Under the pieces are notes generated by a model. It was given only the letters and a program-made list of their open reading frames with translations, had not been told where the DNA came from and did not search any database. DNA of 64,000 nt. It comes from Cenococcum geophilum 1.58. Its lineage: Eukaryota > Ascomycota > Dothideomycetes > Gloniales > Gloniaceae. Each line of letters begins with the position of its first letter. Position 1 is the stretch's first letter. The stretch lies in assembly GCA_001692895.1 (NCBI GenBank), contig KV748226.1, positions 374,329 through 438,328 on the forward strand. Direction: 5' to 3'. Positions 25,412 to 57,380 of the stretch are shown here, piece after piece. The position numbers and the translations under genes are program-made.

Positions 25412-28400
25412 CTAGTTAACTAGACACTCCCTTAATAAGCGAAAGGAGGTATATAATAAGTTTCGTTAGAGTATAAGAAATATTAGAAATTATAAGGTTA
25501 CTACGGCCTACTTTTAAAGCTTCCTAGTTTAATATAAAGGCGTAAAAGATCTTAAGGGTGAGGTTAATAAGACCAAATAGCTCCTTATAGATATAGAAAT
25601 TAAGGACTACTTACCCGACTAATACTTTACTAAGTATAGTAAGGTAGATAGTATATAAACCGTTACTATTCTTAATAACCAATCTACGCTCCATTCTATT
25701 ACAAAGTTAGATATCTTTAACGAGCCAAAGAAAAGCTCCGCGTTCTCCTTTAACAACAGATACTCGGCAAATATCTTCTATAGTATTATACCAGATACTA
25801 GAGCCGCAGGAGTATCTATAGTAGGAAAACCTTAAGTTTAAGCTCTTTAATAATTTAATACTTCTATCCAGATTAACTAATTAACGGCAGGCCAATATAT
25901 AATACGTTTTAGTAAGGGTACCGCAATCTCTCTCGGCATAATTAGGGTCCAAACCCCCTTAGGATATATTACGTTCCACATTATTCCTATAAATACTCCG
26001 TTTTTATTCTATATTAGGGATATAGATAAATTAGGCGTTAAGCTTAATAACCTTAAGAATATACTTATGCAGGGAGATAATCGGGTGCCTATTATATATA
26101 AGTAGGGTTACTTTTAGCTGCTCCTTTAATAACTAGAAAAAAGTGTTACTTAGAATTATTTAACTAAGTTAGAGTTACGTTAACTATACCATCATTTTAG
26201 CCACCTATCCGTTTATTAATTACTTAGGGTTCTTTAGCGAGTAGGCTATAAAGTTAAGGTTAAGGCAATTAAGCATCTTATAAAGTACTGCTATTACTAC
26301 TAAATAAACCAAAAGTCCCCTAGCCAATTTAAGTTTACTCTTAAGAATAACTACAACTTTAACTTCTGTATTATTATTAACGTTATATATCTTAGCGGCA
26401 AGCTAGTACTCTAAGTTATTAACTTCTTAACCTCCTTCTAAGCCGCGCGTTTCTTAAAAGATATATTAGCTAGAAACGCATAGAATACCCTTTAGTTATA
26501 CTAAATTAATATCTATTTAGGACCCCCTAATTAAATTATCTATAATATAGGAAAGAATTTTTTATCTATAGAGTTCCGACAATAGATAAAGGCAATAGTA
26601 ATTAAGGTTAAGGAAGTCCCCGTTAAGGCATATAATAGTATTAAAAAAGTGGAGCAATATTATACGCTATTACGCCGCGTATATAAGATTATCTCTTTAA
26701 AACTAAAGGATGCTAGCAAAGAACTTACCTTATAAATGGCTGTTAAAGCTATTAATAATTCCGCTGGCCCGGATAGACTCATACCTATATTACTAGTCTT
26801 TAGCGCCTACCCTTAAATAACTAATAATTCTCTACTATCTCCCTCTGTTATATAATAAGCTAAGGCTATTCGTAAGGCAATAAAGGAGGTGCGATATCTC
26901 TACGCTATACGCTAGGTTAATAACGCATTAGGAATAAAAAATAGCTTAAATACCTTAACTACGCTTAATCTGCCACTCTAGTCTAAAGTACACGTATAGC
27001 GTAAAAAGGGAGGATGGTCAGGCCTATACTAACTTATTATAATTAATAGCCAAACTTATACTATTTAGATGCCTTACAGACCCACTTAATTCCGTTTAAC
27101 TGTTATTAAGCCTTACTATAAAGATAACAATTCTAAGCCTTTATAGGATACCCTAGAAGATGCCCTAGAGGAGAACTATAATTAATATACTCTAGAAGGC
27201 GACTATAATCCCAATATAATTATAGTAGATACGCTATAACTATAACACGGTAGAGGTCACCTAAAGGGATTATAAAATCACCAACATCTTATTAATTTTA
27301 AAGAACAATTTATTACCGCCATTAAGAATAAAGTTAAGTTATTAATAGCCTTTATAACAGCTAAAGAGAAGGCTAACTTTAAGCTCGCAAAACAGCTCTA
27401 AAAGGAAGGTCGTATTATAACCTTAGGAGCTCCTCTCTAAGCATCTAATAAGTAGGAGATTAATAGTCTTATTATAAGAGGAGTCTTTAAATTTAAGAAG
27501 TATAACCCTACTAAGTTTAATAAAGTTCGTATCTTTAAGTTAAGGATAGTTAATAAGATTAAGGGCAAAGCTACTAACGCCCCATTTAAGAAATTAAGGC
27601 TTATTATTTAAGGTTATAATAATAATAGCAAAGAGATAATTCTTACACAATCTCCTATAATTTAACGAGCTAGTTAGTAAGTTATTATTATATTAGCTTC
27701 CTCCTTAATAAAGAATAGAATGGCGGTTTATTTATAAGATATTACTCAAACCTACACCTAATTAGAGACGCACCTTTAACGCTTAATATTGGCGCATTTT
27801 CTAGAGCAAATTCGCCACCAATATCCTAAAGATACGATTATAGTTATGCTTAAGCTATTATACGGAATCGCAGAGGCAGGAACTTATTAGTAGGCTACCT
27901 ATAGCAAGCACTATAAAGAGAAGCTTTTAATAACTATATCTATATTTAATCTCTGCTTCCTTATTATAACTATAGGAACTCCATTTGGAATCGTTGGCAT
28001 ATAAACTAATAATACTATTATCTTAGAAGACGACCAATTCTTAGCTCTTAAAGAAGATAAGCTAGTAAAGGCAAATCTTATAGCAAAGCTAAAAGAAAAG
28101 CTTAATTTAATAACACCATTACTCTTTAATAAATGCATCCTCTCCCTAAATAAGGACTCTATTGCTTTACGCTAGAAGGGTTAAGGTAAGAAGATTAACG
28201 TTATTAACGTTAATTCCCTAAAGTAAGGATATGTAGAGCAACGCGCTTGCGAAGCTTATATTACTTCTATCTATTAACCTAAGGCTTTATTTAATCTCTC
28301 CGTTGCCGCCTAATACTAGGAACTAACTAAGGATAATATTCTTGCCCTAAATAAACGTCTTTTTTAGTAAATAAACTATCTTAATTAGGGACTACTCTAT

Positions 28401-29002
28401 ATACCTATTAATCTTCCTACCGCTAAGCTCTTTATATTTGTTAATAGATCGTTTATAAATAATAAAGATTTTAGCTCCTAATTAGGATATAAGATTATTA
28501 TTATAAACAAATTTACTAGAGAGAATAACTTTATAATCTATAGCAATCTTATTTATTAGAGCTTAATTAAGAGCAAGCGCGTTACCTAAAGTATTTTGGC
28601 ATTAGAGATATATGGAATAGTTAGCGGAGTTAATATAGCAATTGCAATTGGAACTACCCTAAAGATAATTATAGATCGACTCGAACTTCCTATTATCCCT
28701 ATAATTATATATACTAACTTATATTCCCTCTATAAGTGTTTAGTTAAGCTTAGTACTATAAAGAAAAAGCGCCTTATAATTAATATTATAGCACTTTAGC
28801 AATTCTATAAGCGTTAAGAACTCTTTAAGATTTAATAAATTAATAGCTAAGATAACCTGGTAGATATAATAATAAAGGCGAACCTAAATAAGGCACTAGA
28901 GACGTTTGTTAATATAAATACTCTATATATATAAGTTAAAGGTTAGGTTAAAAGGGAGTCCCTAGAAATTTCTTAGTTATATAAGGTCTTAAGATATCTA
29001 GG

Positions 29003-29025
29003 AACTTTAACCGGCGGTTAAAGTT
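29003..29025. repeat. 3' hairpin AACTTTAACC...GGTTAAAGTT, copy in Copia-2
   Basis: Same 23 bp hairpin as in the Gypsy elements, followed within about 50 bp by a polypurine-like AGGAGGGGGGAG run. Confidence 0.85.
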
Positions 29026-29103
29026 ATCTAATTGGTTAGATTCTCTTGCCAAGACTTTTTTAGGAGGGGGGAGTATGATATTCTACAGACCCTGACTTAA
29101 CTT

Positions 29104-29150
29104 AGCCAATTAGGATTTTCCATCCCCGGGATGGAAAATCGCTATTGGCT
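29104..29150. repeat. 47 bp palindromic element, copy 2 (in Copia-2)
   Basis: The best-preserved copy: perfect 13-base core arms GATTTTCCATCCC / GGGATGGAAAATC around one base, with outer AGCCAAT / ATTGGCT ends. Confidence 0.85.
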
Positions 29151-29382
29151 TGCTTACTACTAGCGCCTTGGCGAGTCTTGTAATATGTCCGCCTACTACC
29201 CTCTAAACACGATATCTACCTACGACTCCTAAGTAAGAAAGCACCACGTGCTAAGAGGCAAATTTTGGGATAGCGAGACTTATATTATAATGGCAATAGT
29301 AAGTAAGGAGGATTAATATTTGTTACGCTAGTTAAGCGGTATATATATATACAGATGGCAACTATAAAAGAAGAGTTGCTAG

Positions 29383-29583
29383 TGTTGGGAATAAAGGCAA
29401 GTGGTCACTATATGAGGCACATTGCCATCATGTATGGCAAGTTGCCGTCACGTGCCGCCGCGGCACTAGCGTAGTGAGGAACCTTAAGTTCCTCACCCCT
29501 TTCTTTAAGACGAACAATAAGAAGAATAATTATTATACTATCTACGAACCGTAGCTATGTGATATCCCCTTGTGTAACCAACA
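29383..29583 (+). repeat. 3' LTR of Copia-2
   Basis: 201 bp, TGTTGGGAAT...GTAACCAACA, followed by the duplicated target gccta. Confidence 0.92.
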
Positions 29584-29588
29584 GCCTA

Positions 29589-29830
29589 TTAAAAGAAGTA
29601 TCTAATTACTACTATAAGAGACTCTTAAAAAGAGCTTAAATTAAGATTTAAATTGTGCCTATTTTAATTACGATTTATAATTAATTAAGGTAGAGAGAGG
29701 GCGTTAAAAGGCCTTAAATTAAAGCACTAAATTAAGAGAAGCTTTAAATTAAGGCTTTAGATTAAAGCTTTAAATTGTGGTTCAAATCGTGGTTCAAATG
29801 GGGCGATATTTTGATGAGGCGAATTTGAGG
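29589..29830. repeat. AT-rich imperfect repeat of TTTAAATTAAGGC-type units
   Basis: Several scattered 12-15 bp variants of CTTTAAATTAAGGC and its inverted partners, plus two copies of GTGGTTCAAAT near 29778-29800. This marks the transition from RIP-altered DNA to the GC-normal island. No gene seen. Confidence 0.5.
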
Positions 29831-30445
29831 CGTTGGCGGTTTGGTGCGTATGGCCCACCATAGTACCGTAGCGAAATAAATTTTTGCTAGAGGGGGGTGG
29901 AGCTACATTCGAGAGTCTGGCAAAGGGTTAGCTTAGGTAGTTGGACGGTCCCGATTCCAGACAAAAGCCATTGATTAGCTGTTGTATTCAAGCTAGACCA
30001 CTTGAGATTTCTAGACCAGTGTAGCAACTTCTATAAAGAATGTAGTATTCAATTTCAGCATTAAGGCAGGCAATGGCTCTTAGCAGTTGGCAGTCGTCTC
30101 ACGAGCCTCTGCATGCTGTCAGGACAATTACTAGTCTATTGCGTACTGTAGCATAAAAATCAGCATATCTAGCTGAGATAAAAGAGTATTAATGTTTAAT
30201 CAAACACCGCGAGAACGTATTTAGCCATATTTTACCTTAGCCAGATTACTTTTTAAATTGCGACTAGGAAATAACTTTTGACGGCTTTGATTTAGCCATA
30301 TCCTGGGGGGTAATTACATAACCTTTACAACACATGACGCTGAAGAAATTATTGACTGTTAACTATCACCAAAAAGACCGGTCGTATTGGCAACGCCAAT
30401 TAGGACAATATATAGCCTCAAATCCCGGTCGGCAGGAATAGAAGA
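29831..30445. other. 3' flank of the Helo/Hsp70-like gene, no further gene seen
   Basis: Base composition is normal and not RIP-like. I looked in all frames for the missing C-terminal part of the Hsp70-like protein and found nothing convincing. GGTGCGTATGGCCCACCATAG at about 29842-29862 resembles, in inverted orientation, a motif upstream of the gene at 33414-33450. Confidence 0.5.
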
Positions 30446-33196
30446 TTAAGTATTTCCATGGGAAGAAAGGCTTTGGGTAATACTACCCATACGGTCAAGA
30501 ATGAGGCCATTAGAGACGGCGAGGTCGCTGAAAATGTGTTATTAAGAACGGGACAGCGAGTGGATCTTCATTACTTACGGACATTTGCAGATAATAAGAT
30601 TCACTTGGGCTTCTTTGCCGAGGTATTCTCGGACACGCTTTTGAACGTAAGGAAACGAGATACGGTTTCCTGAAATAACCAAATGCGACTAATACTTGAG
30701 TTTCATTTAAGTTTATAAAGAGGATGGAGAATCTAAAGTTCTTACAATTTGCTTAAAAGACTTGAGCCAATTAAGGAAGGAGAACAAACTCCCCAGCGAT
30801 TTGTCATACATACACCAGATCTCGCCACTTTTGTCCAGATTGAATTAGTTCGATTTCACGAAGTATGCAAAATTACCCTAAATTTAATGCTTACATAGTG
30901 AATAACATTCTTCCATCCCTAATTCGGGCATCGGCGTGGTAGAATTCCCGCGGAACGAAGGGCAAGCGGAGCTCAATTTTTTCAAAATCATCCAAGGCTT
31001 CGGTCTCGGATCTAACAAAAACCTGAAATGTCTCAAGCAAACCGTCCGCTATACATTGCAGAGAGTAGGGAAAGCTGTCTTCAGGAATAAGCTTTAATCG
31101 CCTCTTAACCTCGTCTTCGAAAACGTGGTCGATATTGATAGAATAGGATGGTCCACCTAGTAATCTTAGTGAAGGACATGTAGTTGAGCTGGACTTTACA
31201 AAGTAAATATTAAGCACAAACCATAGGCAAACTTAAGCATTTTAAGCTTAGGTATCTTAAAGTTTTTACCATCTGGACCTTTAAGAATTTCTAATGAAAT
31301 TACTTCAAAGGCTGGGATGCTCTAACCCGAAAAGCGTTAGCCAGCTAACTTTTCCTTTGAATTAAGTAGGAAAGCGTACTTCAGAACGTTCTCCATCGTT
31401 AAGGACAAGCAAGATGTTGCCTTCCTGTAGTTTCACATCCATTGATGCATATTTTGCTATAGCCTCCTCCTCTGTAAGTTCTGTGCTTATAGAATGCTCC
31501 ACGGTCTCTCCAAACCCAGCCCTCTCCAGGATGGCTCTAAAAAATGAGATAACCGTACCGCTATCCTCCCATACAGTTGGCACGCTGAAAGCGTACTCTA
31601 CCTTATAAGTCCTCCAATCATCAATCTTAAAGAATTCAGTTAAGGAACGAGCGGTATGTTTGTACAATGATCTTAAGAAGTCTTCAAACCACATTTCCAC
31701 GTCTTCGAGTGACTCAAATTTATCTTTTGTAAGCGCCTGGTGTGCTAAGCTTAGCATTCTGGGATCGAGATAAGCCGTGAATCTGTCTCTTACGGCTCTC
31801 GAAGAGCCGACATTACAGTCCGCAGGGCATTCGAAACCCCATGATATATTGCGCCTCCTGCCTACTTCATACGTAACGGCTGTTGGGACTCTGCGTACCA
31901 GGCGGTCATTTGAGCCTGGCCATTCGAGGATATGCATTGCATAATCTTCAGTTTCATAGGGAATTTTGACGTATGAAACAGCTGTAACAAAGTATTGCGT
32001 TTAGCGAGAGAGCTATATTAATATATGCGTATAACGTTGCGAAGTCATACGCGAAATGCGCTTACTTGACCTCCGATTGCTCGCGTTTTTGTACGTACCG
32101 GTCGATTTCATGCCTACATGGACTCCAACAACCAGTATTTCATCAGCCTTGGGCGCGACTAAAGACCTAAAGATGTCATGTTCGCGTTGATGTGAGCCCT
32201 CGGGGTTCCCCTGATTAGATAGACTTCTGCAGCTAACCGCCTTGGTCTCGTAGCAATCACTATTAGTAAGCTCTTTATAAGATACTGGGAGCGATATAAA
32301 GGACACCTTAGACACCTTGTCGAGGGTAGTATCTGAGAATAAAGAAGACATGCCACGGAGACGAGCCGAGTCCGTTAGTGATAAAGCGGAACTACGGCAG
32401 GCAACTCGCTTGTACACTCGACTGTTCTGCAAGTCTTTCTCGAAAGGCATATTATTTATCCAGTATTGGTGACGAGTGAGACCGGAATCCTGGTTAATGT
32501 CTAGGTTGCGGAGGCCAGCTGTGGCAGCCCCGGATTGTAGATCGGCGCAATTCCGTACAGTAAGCGCAAGACTACTGTCGTTATCTTGAATTGAATTAAA
32601 TCGTCCCGCTAAGTCTTCATTGCTTTGTAGGATTTCATAAACAAGGTTGGATAAGGCGTTCATTGAGTTTTCTACCTCGCGCATTGATTGACTACATAAA
32701 TGAGTATGTAAAACAAGTCTTGGAAATTTAAGGCTTGGGAAGCTTGCCATTGAATTATAGTCAGCATTAGAGATAGTGACGACTTAAAACCATTCAGTTG
32801 TTGGATAAAGCCGAGTATTTCTCGCTCCTTAATTAACCATCGCAGTCGATTAAATATAGAAGCACTAGCTCGGCTGGCATCGCTTCTCGAGCAGCTAAGC
32901 CCTATACTGTCGAGTAAAGGTGTAAGATTAGAGTAGGTTAGTACACATCCCGTTAGTATAGCTTGTACTTCTTCGACTAGTATTAACGAGAGTCGGTCCG
33001 GTAAGGGTATAGCTTCTCCATCCAGATACTGCTCTAGACTCTTAAGAATCTGAGTAATGCTTTCTACCTCTCGGAGGACGGCTGTGACCGATTGAGGGGT
33101 ATCTCTTAGCAAGGCTATATTTCGTAGCAGTGATACCATCCTACACCCGGCGGTTAGAAGGCCAACGATCGACGCTGTAACAGAAAGGGGATCCAT
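30446..33196 (-). CDS. Helo-like N-terminal domain fused to a degenerate Hsp70-like (actin/HSP70 fold) domain
   Basis: I read eight exons on the minus strand: 33196-32748, 32691-32099, 31981-31380, 31321-31233, 31164-30895, 30827-30746, 30688-30579, 30527-30446. They give 2277 nt (about 758 residues) with consistent phases. Intron 1 is GC-AG; the others are GT-AG, 50-117 nt. Residues 1-149 start MDPLSVTASIVGLL and match the Helo-like N-terminal domain of fungal STAND and cell-death proteins. Residues 150-335 are a linker with the FEKDLQNSRVYKR stretch often found after that domain. Residues 336-745 follow the fungal Hsp70-like family (e.g. RRVPTAVTYE, FPYVQKRVREYLG, DLAVSNGLILDRM). Key nucleotide-binding residues are lost: phosphate-1 DFGTT reads HVGMK (341-345), phosphate-2 DAGGGTTD reads NDGERSES (542-549), and the adenosine-side SGGLGSSPY reads SGNRISFPY (701-709). 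The substrate-binding-type C-terminus is absent. So it is likely not an active ATPase; a regulatory or cell-death role is inference. The gene is not RIP-altered. An alternative reading is two adjacent genes split near 32.0-32.1 kb. Confidence 0.78.
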
Positions 33197-33597: not shown

Positions 33598-33799
33598 TGT
33601 CACGGCACTGGCAGAACTTGGCAGAACTTTGCGGTCACGTGACTAGAGGACCGCATAAAAGAACCCTTCTTCGACTGGCGCTGCTCTCCTTCTCCTTTCC
33701 TTTCTCTAGCTTTAGATTCTCGTTTATAGACAATCTAATCGTACAGGCTTGCGCGACCCTTTTGCCGTGCTTATATCTCGATTAACTAAGTCGCTAACA
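33598..33799 (+). repeat. 5' LTR of element C
   Basis: 202 bp, TGTCACGGCACTGG...TCGCTAACA, preceded by the duplicated target cgcgc. Confidence 0.92.
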
Positions 33800-33868
33800 T
33801 TATCTAAAGCTTACTCTACTCTTTCTTCCTGAGAAGGAACTTAAATATATCTATAAGACTACGAATAG

Positions 33869-34095
33869 TGTTAGCGACTTAGTCAATTGAGACATAAGCA
33901 CGGCAAAAGGGTCGCGTAAGCCTATACGATTGGATTATCTATAAACGAGAATCTAAAGCTAGGGAAAGGAAAGGAGAAGAAGAGAAGCGCCGTTTGATAT
34001 TTTATAAGATCTTCGCGTCACGTAACCGTAATATACGGCAATTTATGGCAACTTGCCGGTGCGAGGTTCTGCTAAGTTCTACTAGTGCCGTAATA
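33869..34095 (-). repeat. LTR of element B (left, 3' LTR in element orientation)
   Basis: 227 bp, TGTTAGCGAC...GCCGTAATA on the plus strand, the reverse of the element A LTR. Confidence 0.9.
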
Positions 34096-34172
34096 TTACC
34101 CCCCCCTCTAAAAAAGCCTACCCTTAGGCTTTATTGCTAAAAGTCTTAGTAAGAGAATCTAACTAATTAGAT

Positions 34173-34195
34173 AACTTTAACCGCTGGTTAAAGTT
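34173..34195. repeat. 3' hairpin AACTTTAACC...GGTTAAAGTT, copy in element B
   Basis: Same 23 bp inverted repeat as in A, C and both Copia elements, close to the polypurine tract. Confidence 0.85.
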
Positions 34196-37100
34196 CCTAG
34201 ATATCTTAATACCTTATATAACTAAGAAATTTCTAGGGTGTTCTTATCCTTATATTCTTCTAGTAGCTTATCGTCTTTATTATACTAGCATTCTATCTAC
34301 TTATCTAGGTACTTTAGCGGTTTAAATTTATTAGGGTAGTAGCTATAAAACTTCTAAAGCTTATAGGGACTACCTATAAGGTTCTATATAGGGTACTAAG
34401 TAAGGTCTAGGTTATATCCTTTCTAACTAATATAATACTTTAATACTCCCTTTATAAGTTTATAGGCTAGTATTTCTTTAATTTCCTATTTATTATCGCT
34501 ATTAACTTAAATTAGTAGGGAAGGTTTATTCTTTTATCTAGGTAGTAGGTTATTTATAGCTTTTTATAGCTTATCCGGTAAGAAGATAGGGTGAACTTTA
34601 ATTAAGTCTGGGAGCTTAACCTTATATAAGTTGCCTACTTTATTAAGAATTTTATATGGTCCTACTATTTTATAGTCTAGCTTATAGCTAGGCTATTCTG
34701 TTTTTTAGTTCTTTATTATAACCTAGACTATATTGCCTATAGTAAAGTTAGGCTTACGCCTATACTTATTCGCCTACTATTTTATTAATTTTTAGGCCTT
34801 TTTTAGGTTTATATAGGCTACTTTCTAAGCTTCTTCTAAGCGCTTAGCGTACTACTAGGCTTCCTTATAAAATAGTTTTTCGCGTATAGTTTAGGGCCCT
34901 TCTAGTCTTTCCTAGTTAAAGCTTATATAGGGTAGGTAACCTATTTCTAGTTAAATAGGGGCAAATCCAGTAGAGTTGTAGGGTAGGGTTGCTTAGGCGT
35001 AGTCTATTAAGGGTAATAGTTTAGCCTAGTTATCCTAGAAGTAGTTAATAAAAGGCCGGAGTCTCTAATCCAAGTATTAATTTATAATCTCCGTTTAACC
35101 GTCTATTTAGGGGTAATATACTATAGAAAGCTTTAGCTTAATACCTAGGATTCGGGTAAACTTATTCTAAAAGGCTAATATAAACTACGGCCCGCGGTTA
35201 GATATAATAGTGTCTAGTAGTCCGTAAATTTAGTAGACGTAGTAGATATATAATTAGGCTGCCTTTTTAGTATTAATATTTTTATAATAGGGAATTAAGA
35301 ACGGGCGCTTACCGAAGCGGTTAACTAGGATTATAACCATATTATATCCGTTATGGTTTAGAGGTAGCTTATAAAAGTCTATAGAGACGTATTACTAGGG
35401 GTGGTCGGGTATTAGGAGGGGTTTTAATAGTCCTAGGGTCTTATCTCGTGGAATTATAGACCTATAGTAGTTATTATAGTTCCGTATATAGCGGTTAATA
35501 TCTATAATTATTCTAGGCTAGTAGTAGCGGTCGCTAATAATCCTACGGGTTTTATTCTTTCTAGGGTAAGCCGTAGAGACCTAGGTATATACTTTAGTAA
35601 TAAGCCGGGTCCGTAAGTTCTATTTCTTTACTACTACTAACTATTTCTAATGCTTAAGTAATCCATTTTTAAGGGACTATAGGCTGGTAACGTTCTTTAC
35701 CTTTTTACGGTACTCCTATAGAGAAGGGGCCGTACGGTTTATCTATAGCAATTTATTAATTAAGTCAAGTCCTAAAGGGTTAATAGGATACATCTCAGCG
35801 CCTAAAGAGTCTATACTTAGTTCTGCCTATATCTAGGGGTTAAGGTACTCTAGTTATAGTAGCGTCTAGGTCTATAATAAGATCTTTATAGCCGTATAGT
35901 CACCTAGGTCTTATTTACGCCTAGCAAAAGCATCCGCATGGTTTGTAGCGCCTAGTCTATATATAATTAAGAAGTTAAACTAAGATAGGATATCCGCCTA
36001 GCGTGCCTACTGGGCTGTAAGGGCCTTAGTTATTATAAAGTATTCTAGGGCCTTATAATCTAACACTACTTTAATAGGTTTAGGGGTCCCCTCTAGCTAT
36101 ATACGCTAGTACTAAAAGCTAGAGATAATAGCTAGCATTTCTTTATTATGGATGTGGTAGTTTAGTTTAGCATCTATTATAGTCTTTAAATAGTATACAA
36201 TAGGGTACTATTCTCCGTCCGGTTATTTCTGGGAAAAAAACACCGGCTATTACGCTGTCTAAGGCATTAGTTTCTAGTATTAAGGGCCGTTCTGGGTCAA
36301 AGTAGGCAAATAAGGGGATTAACACTAGCCGTTTTTTAAGCTTATTAAAGGCCTGTATATATATAGCGTTAAAGTAAAAGGGCTGGTCTTTTTTAGTAAG
36401 GCGGTTAAAAGGCCGGGTAATCTTACTATAGTTCTTAATAAAGCGTTAGTAGAAGTTATAGAAACCTAAAAACAATTATACCCCCTTTATAGTCCGTAGG
36501 GGCGTCCACTAGTTAATTATAGTTATTTTCTTTAGGTTGGCCTTAATTCCGTCTATACTAATAATAAAACCTAGGTACTTTATACGCTTAATACTAAATT
36601 CTAACTTCTTAATATCAGCCTAAAGGCTAGCTTTACGGAGCCGTTATAGGACTTTATAGACGTACTCCTTATATTCTAGTTTATTCTCTAAGTAGATTAT
36701 AATATTATTTAAATAGGCCGTATAGAAGTCGTTAAGGTAGTTAAAGAGTACATTATTTATATACCGCTGGTATATAGCTAGTCCGTTAGTTAGTCTAAAA
36801 GAAAGTACCTTATATTTATACGTCCCGTAACGGGTTTAGAATATAGTAAAATCCTTAGACCTAGGGTCTGTTCTAATTCAGTAAAAGGCCTAGCAAATAT
36901 TAAACTTTATAAAAACCTTAGCTCTACTTATTTAGGTAAGAGTCTTATTAAGTAAGGGTAGCGGGTAGCGGTCCTTACGGGTTATATTATTTAGCTTATA
37001 GTAGTTAATATAGAAGCGCAGTCCTCTATTTAGCTTTTTAATAAAGAAAATAGGTAAGTTAAAAGGGGCTTAGCTAGGCTTAATAAAGCCCTTATTTAGG

Positions 37101-39622
37101 TTATTAATAAAGTACTACTTTATAGCCTATAATTCAGCAATAGACTATAGGTAGAGAGGGCTAAAGCTAAGGGTACTTCCCTTATCTTGCTTAATCTTAA
37201 TCTTATAGTTATATAGTTAGTAGGGTAAAAGTATATTAAACGCTGCCTTAGAGAATACGTCTTTAAATTTCCGGTATTAATTAGGCAGTTTTTACTCTAC
37301 TAGTTCTTTATCCATAAACTCACTTTCCTATCCGCTAAGCTTGCTTTCCTTTTCCTTAATTATTTAGTTAATTTTATATAGGCTAGTTATAAAGGTAATA
37401 GTATTAGGCTAAACTAGGTTCTAGTAGAATCCTATAGCGCTAATATAGCAGACATTAACTAGTAGGAGGTCCGTAGGTTTCTTTAGCGTCCGTTAGGCCG
37501 TGGTTTACGGTATAGGGTTTATAGTCTTTCTTAGCTTACGTTCTATTTTCCGTAAGTTATCCTTCCTATCTATTAGTTTAGTGTAACGTCTAATACCCCT
37601 AGCTTTCCTTTATAGCTTTATAGGGTTCTTTATAGGGAACTTAGCTAGGTCACTACCGACTTCCTAGGTCTTTAGTGCGGGTAGCGTAATATAGGTAGTT
37701 TAAGGGCGGCGTAGTATACGGATCCGTTACAGGTTAAGCTATACGTCCTTCTTAAAGGCCTAGTCTCTGCGTATAGCATCGGCCTAGTAAATAGTATTAA
37801 TCTAGGGCCGTATAAGGTTTTCTATTATAATGCTAATTTCTTTTATAAAGGAAGGGGTTAGGGGTAGAGTTTTAGGCTAGATAAGCCGTTTACTCTATAC
37901 TTTAAGCTACAAGCCTAAATAGGCTAGCTATTTTCTTCCTAAGATTATATTATAGCTTCCTAAGTCCATAATAAGAAAGGGGATGTTATACTACCTTTAT
38001 CCGTTAACGCGGAGGTAGATCTATAAGATAGTTATAATAAATAGCCCTATACGTCCGTTATAACCGCAAATAGGGATTAGTTTAGGCAGTTCTTTAAGGG
38101 GTATATTTAAAAAGTTAGCCAGTTTTATAGCGCACTTTATATTAATTAAGGTAAAGGTATTTACTCCTAAGTCAGCTAAAGCAGAGGTTAAAACTTAATA
38201 TTTATTATAAAATAAAGTATAAGGGATAGTACAGCTTCTTCTACTAACTAGCTAACCTAGATTAATATATAATATATTAATCCCTTTTAACCCTAGAGAG
38301 GAGTCTTCCTCTAAGGTTCCTCTTTTTCTAGCTTTATACTATCCTCCTAAATTAACAGGACCTTATTTATCTTTACCTTTATTAGGCAGTTCCTTATAGG
38401 GTAGCCTATTTAACCGCATAAAAAGTAAGCTCCTTAATCGCTAAAGGCCTATATATAGGGGTCGCTATATATAGGCCAGGTATATACCGGGCCCATAGTA
38501 GGGGTAGCTACGCGGCTAACTACTAGGTTAACTATAGGAGCTACTAATTATACCGGGGCACTATAGGCCGTACTTATAGTACTTATAGCCTAGTTTATAA
38601 GGTTTCTAGTTTTTAGCCAATTAGTATATACCTTAATTCGATAAAGACCTTAGTTAATAGCTAGGCAATAATCCGTAAGTTCCTTTAACATCTATACTAT
38701 AGTATAAGCTAGTAATACGGCCCGCTATAGGTCCAGGGTAAGCTTATTAAAGAGGTCTAGTAGTAGGTCTTCTTAGGGGATTTAGGCCTATCCGGCTAGG
38801 TATAAAAAGCGGGTTTAAAAGGCTAAAAAGGTCTCCGTTGTTTTTATATTTAGGCTTTTATAGCTAAGGCAGGCGTTCTATACTTTAAAAGGGTCTTTAT
38901 AAATAGAAGACAAGTATTTAATTATTTCTTCTTTAGAGATAAAGGGGTCTATTAAGTCTTTAATGTATTACGGGCGTAAATACGTCTAGGCGTCTTCGCT
39001 AGTACGGCTAAAGATATAGGCTATTCTAGCTTAGGCGTTAGGGAAGTAGTCTATATTAACTTTAAGCTTATCCTATAATTAAAGCTTCCAATTATTAAAT
39101 ATAGGGTTAGTTCCGTCTATAAGTAGTAGGGGGTCCGCAACCTTTGTTAACCGCTTCGGTGCTATATAGGCCTTAGTAGATCTACTAAGGCGCTAAAATA
39201 GGGCCTAAAGGACTATAGTAAGTCTTTAGTTATTTAATAATAACTTATTATTAGATATAGGGGTATCTCTAGCTTTAAGCAGCTCTTACAATTATTTAAT
39301 TTTAGTATTAGCAGCCACAAGCTCCGCCTAGGGGGTTAAAACATTAATTATTTCTTCGTCTAAAGTATTTAAGGGTCCTATAGCTACTTTACCTACTACT
39401 ATAGTTTATAGCATAGTAGTAGGGGTATTAGGTAATTCCGGGTAATTTCTTTAGGGGTTCTAGTCTATGCGTATCTTATAGGTCTTTTTCTTAGGGTTCT
39501 ATTCTTTTCTTTTAGGTCCTATCCTTATAGTCCTAGTAATGTCCTTAGGGTCCTATTCTATGTTCTTGTAAATATATTTAAGTTCCTTCTTAGGAAGAAA
39601 GAGTAGAGTAAGCTTTAGATAA

Positions 39623-39849
39623 TATTAGCGACTTAGTTAATTAAGATATAAGCATAGTAAAAGGGTCGCGCAAGCCTATATAATTGGATTGTCTATAAAC
39701 GAGAATTTAAAGCTAGGGAAAGGAAAGGAGAAGAAGAGAAGCGCCGTTCGATATTTTATAAGATCTTTATATCACATAACCGCAATATACGGCAATCTAT
39801 AACAACTTACCGGTGTAAAATTCTACTAAGTTCTACTAGTGCCGTAATA
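39623..39849 (-). repeat. LTR of element B (right, 5' LTR in element orientation)
   Basis: 227 bp, TATTAGCGAC...GCCGTAATA, followed by the duplicated target aatag. Confidence 0.9.
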
Positions 39850-42800
39850 AATAGGATAAGAACACAGAATAGGACCCTAAGGATAGGACTTAAAAGAAAA
39901 GAACAGAACCCTAAGAAAAGGATATATAAGATACGCACAGACTAAAACCCCTAAAGAAATTACCCGGAATTACCTAACACCCTTACCACCATACTATAAA
40001 CTATAGTAGCAGGTAAAGCAGCTATAGGACCCTTAAATACTTTAAATAAAGAAATAATTAACATTTTAACCCCCTAGGCGGAGCCTACGGCTACTAATAC
40101 CAAAATTAAATAACTACGAGAGCTACTTAAAGCTAGAGATACCCCTATATCTAATAATAAGTTATTATTAAATAACTAAAGACTTGCTATAGTCCTTTAG
40201 GCCCTATTTTAGCGCCTTAGTAAATTTACTAAGGCCTATATAGCACTAAAGTAGTTAGTAAAGGTTATAGACCCCCTACTACTTACAGACAGAACTAACC
40301 CTATATTTAATAATTAGAAGCTTTAATTACAGGATAAGCTTAAAGTTAATATAGACTACTTTCCTAGCGCCCGAGCTAAAATAGCCTATATCTTTAGCTA
40401 TACTAGCAAAGACGCCTAGACGCATTTACGCTTATAATATACTAAAGACTTAGCAAACCCCTTTATCTTTAAAGAAGAAATAATTAAATACTTATTTTCT
40501 ATTTATAAAGACCTTTTTAAAGTATAAAACGCCCGCTTTAGCTATAAAAACCTAAATATAAAAATAACGGAGACCTTTTCGGCCTTTTAAACCCGCTTTT
40601 TATACCTAGCCAAATAGACCTAGATCCTTTAAGAAGACCTACTACTAGACCTCTTTAATAAGCTTACCCTAGACCTATAGCGGGCCGTATTACTAGCTTA
40701 TACTACGGTATAGACGTTAAAGAAACTTATAAACTATTACCTAGCTATTAACCAAGGCTTTTATTAAATTAAGGTACGCGCTAATTAGCTAAAAACTAAA
40801 AACCTTATAAATTAGGCCGTAAGTACTATAAGTACGGCCTATAGTACCCTAGCACAATTGGTAACTCCTATAGTTAACCTAGTAGTTAGCCGTATAGCTA
40901 CCCCTACTATAGGCCTAGTATACACCCGGCCTATATATAGTAACCCCTATATATAGGCCCTTAGCGATTAAGGAGCTTACTTCTTATATAGTTAAATAGG
41001 CTACTCTATAAGAAACTGCCTAATAAAGGTAAAGATAAATAAGGTCTTATTAATTTAGGAGAATAATATAAAGCTAGAAAAAGAGGAACCTTAGAAAAAA
41101 ACTCCTCTTTAGGGTTAAAAGGGATTAATATATTATATATTAATCTAGGTTGGCTAGTTAGTAGAAAAAGCTATACTATCCCTTATACTTTATTTTATAA
41201 TAGATATTAAGTTTTAACCTTTACTTTAGCTAACTTAGGAGTAAATACCTTTACCTTAATTAATATAAAGTGCGCTGTAAAACTAGCTAACTTTTTAAAT
41301 ATATCCCTTAAAGAACTACCTAAACTAATCCCTATTTACGGTTATAATAGATAGATAGGGCTACTTATTACAACTATCTTGCGGATTTACCTTCACGTTA
41401 ATAGACGAAGGTAGTATAATATCCCCTTCCTTATTACGGACCTTAGAAGCTATAATATAATCTTAGGGAGAAAATAGCTAGCCTATTTAGGCTTATAGCT
41501 TAATATATAGAATAGGCAGCTTATTTAGCCTAAAATTATACCCCTAACGCCTTCCTTTATAAAAAAGATTAGTATTATAATAGAAAACCTTATACGGCTA
41601 TAGATAGACACTATTTACTAAGCCAATATAACGCGTAGGGACTAGGCTTTTAAAAAGGATATATAGCTTAATCTATAACGGATCTATATATTACGCCGCC
41701 CCTAAACTACCTATATTACACTACCCGCACTAAAGATTTAGAAAGTTAATAGTAGCCTAGCTAAGTCCCTAATAAAGAACCTAGGCCCTATATAGCTATA
41801 AAGGAAGGCTAGGGATATTAGACGCTATACTAAACTAATAAATAGGAAGGATAATTTATAGAAAATAGAATGTAAGCTAAGGAAGACTATAAACTTTATA
41901 CCGTAAACTACGGCCTAATAGACGCTAAAGAAACCTACAGACCTCCTACTAGTTAATATCTGCTATATTAGCGCTATAGGATTCTACCAGAACCTAGTTT
42001 AGCTTAATGCTATTACCTTTATAACTAGCCTATATAAAATTAACCGAATAATTAAGGGAAAAAAAAGTAAGCTTAGCAAATAGAAAAATAGGCTTATAGA
42101 TAAAGAACTAGTAGAATAAAAACTACCTAATTAACACTAGAAATTTAAGGATATATTCTCTAAGGTAGCGTCTAATATGCTTTTACCCTATTAACTATAT
42201 AACTATAAGATCGAGATTAAGTAAAATAAGGGAAGTACCCTTAGCTTTAGCCCTCTCTACCTATAGTTTATTGCCGAATTATAGGCTATAAAGTAGTACT
42301 TTATTAATAACTTAAATAAGGGCTTTATTAAGCCTAGCTAAGCCCCTTTTAACTTACTTATCCTCTTTATTAAAAAGCTAAATAGAGGACTGCGCTTCTG
42401 TATTAACTACTATAAGCTAAATAATATAACCCGTAAGGACCGCTACCCGCTACCTTTACTTAATAAGACTTTTACCTAAATAAGTAGAGCTAAGGTTTTT
42501 ATAAAGCTTAATATCCGCTAGGCCTTTTACTAAATTAAAATAAACCCTAGGTTTAAGGATCTTACTATATTTCGGACCTATTATAAAACGTATAAATATA
42601 AGGTACTTCCTTTTAGACTAACTAATAGACTAGCTACGTACTAGCGGTATATAAATAATATACTCTTTAACTACCTTAATAACTTCTATACGGCCTATTT
42701 AGATAATATTATAATCTACTTAGAGAACAAACTAGAATATAAGGAGTATATTTATAAAGTCTTATAACGGCTCCGCAAAGCTAGCCTTTAGGCCAATATT

Positions 42801-56501: not shown

Positions 56502-57149
56502 TCAAAGGCAGTAGTTTTGGAAGATCTTAAACTTAAAATTAAAGTTATCTTGTTCGCCAGAGTATTTAACTTCGTCCGTGTAGAGCTTAGCTAAGTTGGT
56601 AATCTCTCTTCCGAAGCTTCCTTGTACGGCAAGCTGGTCTATAGCTTGGGTCGCAGTCAGTAGTAATGGTAGAGCTAGGGTAGGGTCGTCAGTAGGGTCG
56701 TCGGTAGGGCCATCGGTAGGGTCATCGGTAGGGTCGTCGGTAGGGTCGTCGGTAGGGCCGTCGGTAGGCCATTTTAAGGGAGTTGGTTCGTAAATAGTTC
56801 CTAAGAGGCCGTCTATAATTAACTTCCTTGCCTCCTTCCGTACGTATACTCTATTTTTACGGAGGTAATCCCTGATCTTCTTTAATTGATCCTTGCCAAG
56901 GTTATCCAGTATATCCTTTATAAAGGACTTAAAGTCGTTAATAAAGCTCTCCCATAAGTTGAATCCCTTCCATCCATTTTCCTTATATATTGATAAACGC
57001 CAATTAACGAATGCTTTAACTTCCTTAATATCAGTTACGGTCGCGTCAATTCCAGTCTCCCATTTTTCGGTATCCGTCGCGGAGGTAGCCATCGCGGAGG
57101 TAGCCATCGCGGAGGTAGATTTTTCAGTATTTATTGCGGAGGTAGCCAT
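56502..57149 (-). CDS. Gag-like protein of the short LTR element, 215 codons
   Basis: Uninterrupted reading frame starting 232 bp inside the 5' LTR (right copy), with two in-frame repeats of an AMATSA-type sequence at its start. Residues about 127-156 are a proline/threonine/aspartate repeat (PTDDPTDGPT type) encoded by the 12 bp tandem repeat at 56680-56769. The C-terminal YSGEQDNFNFKFKIF resembles the conserved entry of fungal retrotransposon gag proteins (SGExDNFDFKxxIF type). Related sequence continues beyond the frame's end, so the ancestral protein was longer. Structural capsid role by family; whether it is made is unknown. Confidence 0.7.
   Translation of the reverse strand: MATSAINTEKSTSAMATSAMATSATDTEKWETGIDATVTDIKEVKAFVNWRLSIYKENGWKGFNLWESFINDFKSFIKDILDNLGKDQLKKIRDYLRKNRVYVRKEARKLIIDGLLGTIYEPTPLKWPTDGPTDDPTDDPTDDPTDGPTDDPTDDPTLALPLLLTATQAIDQLAVQGSFGREITNLAKLYTDEVKYSGEQDNFNFKFKIFQNYCL
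56680..56769. repeat. 12 bp tandem repeat, about 7.5 units
   Basis: GTAGGGTCGTCG units with few differences. It keeps the reading frame of the gag-like ORF (four residues per unit). Confidence 0.92.
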
Positions 57150-57380
57150 CTTTTGGTTCCGCAGTTGATTTGATTTAACAGTCGGATTAGAAGCGTGGAA
57201 ACCTACAAACTAATCGTTCTGAAGGTGTAATGGACGCAGGTTAGAAGCGCGAGTAACCTCATAAACTAGCCTTTAGGCTTAGCAAGCAATACTTTAATTC
57301 TTAGCCTTTAACGAGAGGTCTAGAGAATTAGGTAGTGCCTCTCTTTATTATACCTTGCTAATCTATACGGCACTGATCAG

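Follow-up and report, generated by a model that had tools for sequence, protein, structure and literature searches.

In the window, a 64-kb stretch of Cenococcum geophilum 1.58 DNA, sequence evidence points to a single gene in which a HeLo-like module is fused in frame to an Hsp70-type domain. Each of the two halves comes from a known family. The most familiar carriers of HeLo-like domains are ATP-driven NLRs and small effector proteins, and among the open-licence papers listed, no title or abstract opening dealt with a HeLo-like/Hsp70 fusion. The nucleotide-binding motifs of the Hsp70-type half are replaced, and this half has the look of a pseudo-ATPase maintained by selection, as opposed to a decayed allele. 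The gene and its parts are as follows.

30446..33196, minus strand: whole gene from start to stop codon, 8 exons, 7 introns, 759 aa
33196-32748, minus strand: exon 1
32691-32099, minus strand: exon 2
31981-31380, minus strand: exon 3
31321-31222, minus strand: exon 4
31156-30895, minus strand: exon 5
30827-30746, minus strand: exon 6
30688-30579, minus strand: exon 7
30527-30446, minus strand: exon 8
32692..32747, minus strand: intron 1, 56 nt, GC-AG with donor GCAAGC, phase 2
31982..32098, minus strand: intron 2, phase 1
32580..33196, minus strand: HeLo-like/PigL_N (PF17111) module, residues 1-187, by Pfam match, interrupted by intron 1
32250..32444, minus strand: second conserved N-module block, residues 233-297, F..DL..SRVY.R ... 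SLP....N..Y, in exon 2
30446..32135, minus strand: degenerate Hsp70-like nucleotide-binding domain, residues 336-759, lacking the C-terminal region found in the paralogues
32106..32120, minus strand: phosphate-1 motif HVGMK (residues 341-345), replacing DxGxT, in the same exon as the N-module block
31776..31778, minus strand: Thr416, replacing a Lys
31380..31400, minus strand: phosphate-2 motif NDGERSE (residues 542-548), replacing DAGGGTT
30647..30673, minus strand: adenosine (third) motif SGNRISFPY (residues 702-710), replacing SGGLGSSxY

Gene structure and continuity of the two halves

Rebuilding of the reading frame yielded 759 residues with no internal stops and consistent exon phases, reproducing the eight-exon minus-strand gene of about 758 codons, with matching phases and no stop, that a preliminary description had proposed. 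The place and phase of intron 1 are those of a GT intron in the paralogue L038 (C9), in which the same Cys codon is split. The other six introns are all GT-AG and lie after residues 347, 548, 581, 668, 696, and 732, in phases 1, 0, 1, 2, 0, and 2, respectively. Comparison with five in-genome paralogues, to whose models the aligner added extra introns, revealed that these six were matched in both place and phase by L023 (6/6), L022 and L024 (5/6 each), and L025 and L027 (4/6 each). When two distant templates (P0004 and P0010) were used in protein-to-DNA alignment, introns 2, 5, and 6 were recovered unchanged with both, and intron 4 was recovered exactly with P0010 and with a donor 4 bases off with P0004; intron 3 differed with both templates, its donor agreeing with P0004, and intron 7 lay beyond the reach of these alignments. 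The public protein K441DRAFT_666849 (P0001, 529 residues) is 100% identical to residues 231-759 and thus agrees with introns 2-7. This model starts at Met231 and so comes without residues 1-230 and the HeLo-like part, and the GC donor of intron 1 probably made the gene predictor miss that intron.

A division into two separate genes at 32.0-32.1 kb, which the preliminary description had named as the outcome that would speak against the fusion, is contradicted by the continuity of exon 2, which runs stop-free from the N-module block at residues 233-297 into the phosphate-1 motif of the Hsp70-like half, and by intron 2, which coincides in place and phase with the first intron of L022, L023, and L024. 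Residues 1-297 also align as a single unit with P0002, P0009, P0012, and P0014, as do residues 2-293 with P0013. The public model, with its start at Met231 and its omission of exon 1, would fit two adjacent genes joined in error, but such a wrong join is highly improbable given that exon 2 by itself holds both the N-module block and the first Hsp70 motif, that intron 1 matches the L038 intron, and that the joint between exons 1 and 2 is gapless when aligned with three relatives.

The gene is flanked by an inverted pair (28960-29059 and 34139-34238; 100 nt, 95% complementary), and its carriage as transposon cargo was considered. This candidate was rejected, and the gene is not read as a mobile element, because the pair is a high-copy repeat of the 177-Mb host genome (40 of 1568 candidate matches were scored) and the gene itself did not turn up a second time. 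Other repeats nearby include two 127-nt inverted arms at 33677-33991 (91% complementary, with a 61-nt spacer), which lie some 0.5 kb upstream of the gene and are MITE-like but overlap longer repeats, and a large inverted pair at 37411-42000 (1912-nt arms, 88%, 334 nt between them), outside which a 215-nt pair extends to the limit of the stretch searched. Apart from the gene, a single open frame in the window is 230 aa or longer (56502-57209, minus strand), and its sole Pfam match above cut-off is a PT disordered repeat.

The N-terminal module and its partners

The Helo-like domain previously proposed for the N-terminus was borne out by profile search, with residues 1-187 matching PF17111 at 46.6 bits (E 3.6e-12), above the curated cut-off of 27.2 bits that governs membership in the family. 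Across the full protein and at E up to 10, PF17111 was the sole Pfam domain, with no NACHT, NB-ARC, repeats, or kinase, and no amyloid signalling motif was matched within the Pfam classes. Searches of the PDB with profiles of the domain (E limits of 1 and 10) yielded no HeLo chain, which is a weak test. The best 19-residue mean hydrophobicity of the first helix was 1.68, and seven relatives ranged from 1.34 to 2.04. The second conserved block aligned with all seven relatives tried, at z scores of 7.2-14.6 over shuffles.

Five relatives of the N-module came from the database. The partner domains scoring over cut-off in them were a RhoGAP domain in P0009 and a RhoGEF domain in P0012, while P0014 gave PH matches at sub-threshold scores only and the Pfam scan revealed no partner domain in P0002 (the nearest relative) or P0013, so that the module occurs with several partners, none of them dominant. 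Residues 1-297 align with P0009 and P0012 at 32% and 29% identity, respectively, and the partner domains in those proteins are GTPase regulators, whereas the partner here is Hsp70. The PF17111 profile itself scored above cut-off in P0013 only, with P0009 just below it (26.7) and P0012 far below (12.5). In the protein model of P0009, inserted residues occupy the site of intron 1, probably from a retained intron, and public models of the N-module family may be wrong here. In the same genome, the locus L032 shows a putative LIM-like cysteine pattern, noted by eye.

The HeLo-like NLRs and HELLP-type proteins, as portrayed in passages of PMC4986451, PMC9815663, and PMC12881547, share a PF17111-type N-terminal domain with the present gene, which differs from them in lacking a STAND ATPase, repeats, and any Pfam match to an amyloid motif. 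The function of HeLo-like domains is entered as unknown in a table of a 2014 paper. Elsewhere in the genome, 28 of the 60 listed PF17111 matches (on C62, C3, C1, C9, and others) contain four or more in-frame stops. Four of these, L005-L008, belong to a single repeat family (0.9-2.1 kb at 88-90% identity) with RIP-like dinucleotide ratios that are clear in three loci and weak in L006, and the family has the appearance of a repeated element with a HeLo-like gene on board.

The fusion itself was searched for both inside and outside the genome. The N-module was present in none of the seven Hsp70-like paralogue loci examined (tblastn, E up to 1e-3), and no second protein covering both halves appeared among 16, 1, and 4 database matches (about 8000 candidates scored in each search), which is weak evidence of absence since the second and third searches missed relatives found by the first. 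A profile search containing exon 1 returned no exon-1 relative and says little, because known relatives, P0003-P0011 among them, escaped it as well. Only this strain may carry the fusion. The preliminary description had looked to orthologues for the same fusion together with the same motif losses; the latter were found in part, at phosphate 2 of P0017, and the former was seen in no second protein among the database matches.

Motif loss and probable selection in the Hsp70-like half

The protein alone gave no Hsp70 match in Pfam or NCBIfam, and a profile that included degenerate rows (A4) retrieved no Hsp70 chain from the PDB. A profile built from five intact paralogues (A6; L022, L023, L025, L027, and L028) did retrieve Hsp70-family PDB chains, with a best E of 3.3e-5 and the three motifs aligned, so that the Hsp70-like second half proposed earlier is upheld by ATPase-domain homology through the paralogues. 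The two profile searches suggested at that stage thus diverged, with the Helo-like domain found directly and HSP70 reached by way of the paralogues and not from the protein alone. Fungal Hsp70-like proteins (Alternaria P0004-P0008 and Boeremia P0010, with PF27033 in most rows), which we take to be HSPA12-like, have the motifs at the same positions and are 27-28% identical to the present protein over residues 330/336 to 716/757. Their ATP motifs are kept in P0004, P0006, P0007, P0008, and P0010, whereas those of the present gene are replaced; the longer of these relatives have a C-terminal region, and a HeLo-like part was seen in none of the matches.

The alignment is gapless at every one of the three nucleotide motifs, where HVGMK, NDGERSE, and SGNRISF stand in place of the phosphate-1, phosphate-2, and adenosine motifs of the Hsp70 family. 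Two replacements are exactly as first described (HVGMK at 341-345 and NDGERSES at 542-549), and the third, SGNRISFPY, is confirmed with a corrected position, at 702-710 in the rebuilt model and not at 701-709. Inspection of the codons by eye suggests that most replacements need a transversion or two changes, in agreement with the earlier view that they are not of RIP type; D542N and S708F could each have arisen by one transition, and the former might be of RIP type, in which case that view would not extend to it. The acidic residue of LTEEEA, in the Hsp70 connect-1 region, is kept. The substrate-binding C-terminal part is absent, and the protein ends with the ATPase domain. When the C-terminal parts of four paralogues were searched against 27500-30700, nothing better than E 0.43 was obtained, and this match was rejected as a downstream remnant because it falls in exon 8 itself.

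Within the genome, all three motifs are intact in six of the seven paralogue loci; an eighth, weaker paralogue at C47 is outside this set. The locus L026 (C52) has altered phosphate-2 (DSSGGIT) and third motifs together with in-frame stops and is a decaying member of the same Hsp70-like family. The closest paralogue, L022 (C51), shares the contig with the gene at a distance of about 62 kb and is 45% identical over 165 residues.

Closer relatives came from a protein search with profile A3, the four matches of which were P0001 (the protein itself), P0017, P0018, and P0019. Identity to the present protein is 73% over 186 positions (363-548) for P0017 and 89% over 131 positions (402-532) for P0019; P0018 is 41% identical and stands nearer the intact paralogues (46-49%). 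The best match of P0017 in the genome is the present gene (72%), with the next at 45% or less. No DNA locus was found for P0017 in genome_contigs or plasmids, or for P0019 in viral_contigs. Phylogenetic analysis grouped the gene, P0017, and P0019 in one clade, supported at 100/100, whose stem measures 1.67 changes per column, in a tree where P0017, P0018, and P0019 are partial sequences and L028 is a very long branch.

In a motif alignment of 17 rows (P0005, P0011, P0015, and P0016 left out), the phosphate-2 motif of P0017 reads DDGERSK against NDGERSE here, while GGGT is present in 12 of the 13 other covering rows, the thirteenth being L026. Residue 416 is Thr in all three clade rows and Lys in all 14 others, and this Lys column is presumably that of the catalytic Lys of Hsp70. 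The phosphate-1 Asp is kept in 12/14 other rows, P0003 and P0018 deviating probably because their models start there, and the GG of the third motif is kept in 13/13 other rows. Among the clade relatives, phosphate 2 is covered by P0017 only, and the first and third motifs by none. An orthologue with intact motifs, which the preliminary description had put forward as the sign of a decayed allele, was not encountered, and P0017, the sole clade relative covering any motif, shares the change. That P0017 has the same replacement at its one covered motif suggests an old loss that selection has preserved.

Four intact paralogues agree at 122 columns, and the present protein keeps 74 of these. In a protein comparison with one relative (P0017, residues 363-548, its intron-read residues excluded), the kept family-invariant columns were unchanged in 37/37 cases versus 75/116 for variable columns (Fisher p 2.4e-6), and inclusion of the intron-read residues gave 37/38 versus 75/119 (p 8.6e-6). 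At 12 of 17 lost family columns, P0017 was identical to the present protein. The corresponding comparison with P0019 (25/26 versus 74/85, p 0.29) was not significant. The combination of lost catalytic residues and a constrained scaffold that marks a pseudoenzyme was therefore found over residues 363-548 by protein comparison with one relative. When neutral change was simulated to a level of 0.055 per site, a bit under half the divergence giving the amino-acid difference of P0017 and with indels uncounted, the CDS was stop-free in 13/2000 runs with no base bias and in 10/2000 runs with an AT bias of 2; for the 186 codons shared with P0017 at full divergence, 7.7% of 400 neutral runs, or 2.5% under AT bias, were stop-free. 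The RIP dinucleotide ratios were 0.98 and 1.06 for the whole CDS, compared with 1.73-1.93 and 0.30-0.38 for the two large repeat-rich flanks, and exon 1 by itself was mildly RIP-like (1.39 and 0.74).

These results bear on whether the gene is under relaxed selection and being lost in the strain, with the fusion an accident of a transposon-rich region. The heavily RIP-affected surroundings, the mildly RIP-like exon 1, the long stem branch, the missing C-terminal region, and the in-frame stops of the related L026 are all consistent with such a loss, but 759 open codons, splice sites at all seven introns, the neutral simulations, the constraint seen against P0017, and the identical kind of phosphate-2 change in P0017 render it quite unlikely. 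The shared phosphate-2 change, Thr416, and the P0017 constraint point instead to a selected pseudo-ATPase.

Possible roles of the fusion

The reading favoured here, tentatively and at a little less than even confidence, is that one gene encodes a two-part switch or scaffold in which the pseudo-Hsp70 controls the N-terminal module, with an adaptor output. The Hsp70 fold would have lost ATP-driven cycling and would be kept as a fixed-shape surface for sensing or docking a partner protein, and would in this way govern how the N-terminal module clusters or is placed at the membrane. Such control would resemble that of MLKL, in which a pseudokinase governs a four-helix bundle: the proposed logic, a helical effector joined to a dead ATP-binding enzyme fold, may be compared with MLKL as presented in parts of PMC12881547, whereas the dead fold here is of Hsp70 type with no pseudokinase match and killing is proposed only. 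A membrane or signalling adaptor output appears somewhat more likely than cell killing, since RhoGAP and RhoGEF proteins are among the carriers of the nearest N-modules.

For the role in cell death, allorecognition, or defence that the preliminary description had suggested, no direct evidence was obtained. The gene could encode a cell-death effector, a membrane-breaking HeLo-like bundle restrained by the pseudo-Hsp70 and freed in allorecognition or defence, as would accord with the PF17111 match, the hydrophobic first helix, and the evolutionary link between HeLo-like domains and the MLKL four-helix bundle that a review (PMC12881547) draws in passages that also place some HELL domains on kinase or pseudokinase proteins. 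This role is nonetheless unlikely, considering that no NACHT was found near the gene among the 86 matches listed (from 88 scored of 162 candidates), the only one on this contig being about 825 kb away, that two of the five N-module relatives carry RhoGAP or RhoGEF domains, that the hydrophobicity of the first helix falls inside the range of its relatives, and that the PDB profiles yielded no HeLo chain, weak as that test is. An all-in-one class of fungal executioner, in which a nucleotide-independent Hsp70 would gate a HeLo-like bundle in the allorecognition or defence of an ectomycorrhizal fungus, is likewise rather unlikely. The Hsp70-like domain might also remain a ligand-gated switch that binds a nucleotide or some other small ligand by a non-standard mode, with which the kept acidic residue of LTEEEA and a phosphate-2 change that is shared and not random are compatible; the change of all three loop motifs and of the otherwise invariant Lys makes this distinctly improbable.

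If the favoured switch or scaffold reading is true, a chaperone ATPase, like a kinase, would be convertible to a fixed regulatory scaffold for a HeLo-like module, and if the executioner reading is true, the logic of MLKL would have been built on a chaperone instead of a kinase. Either way, C. geophilum offers a testable case consisting of one gene in one genome, with the intact paralogue L022 on the same contig.
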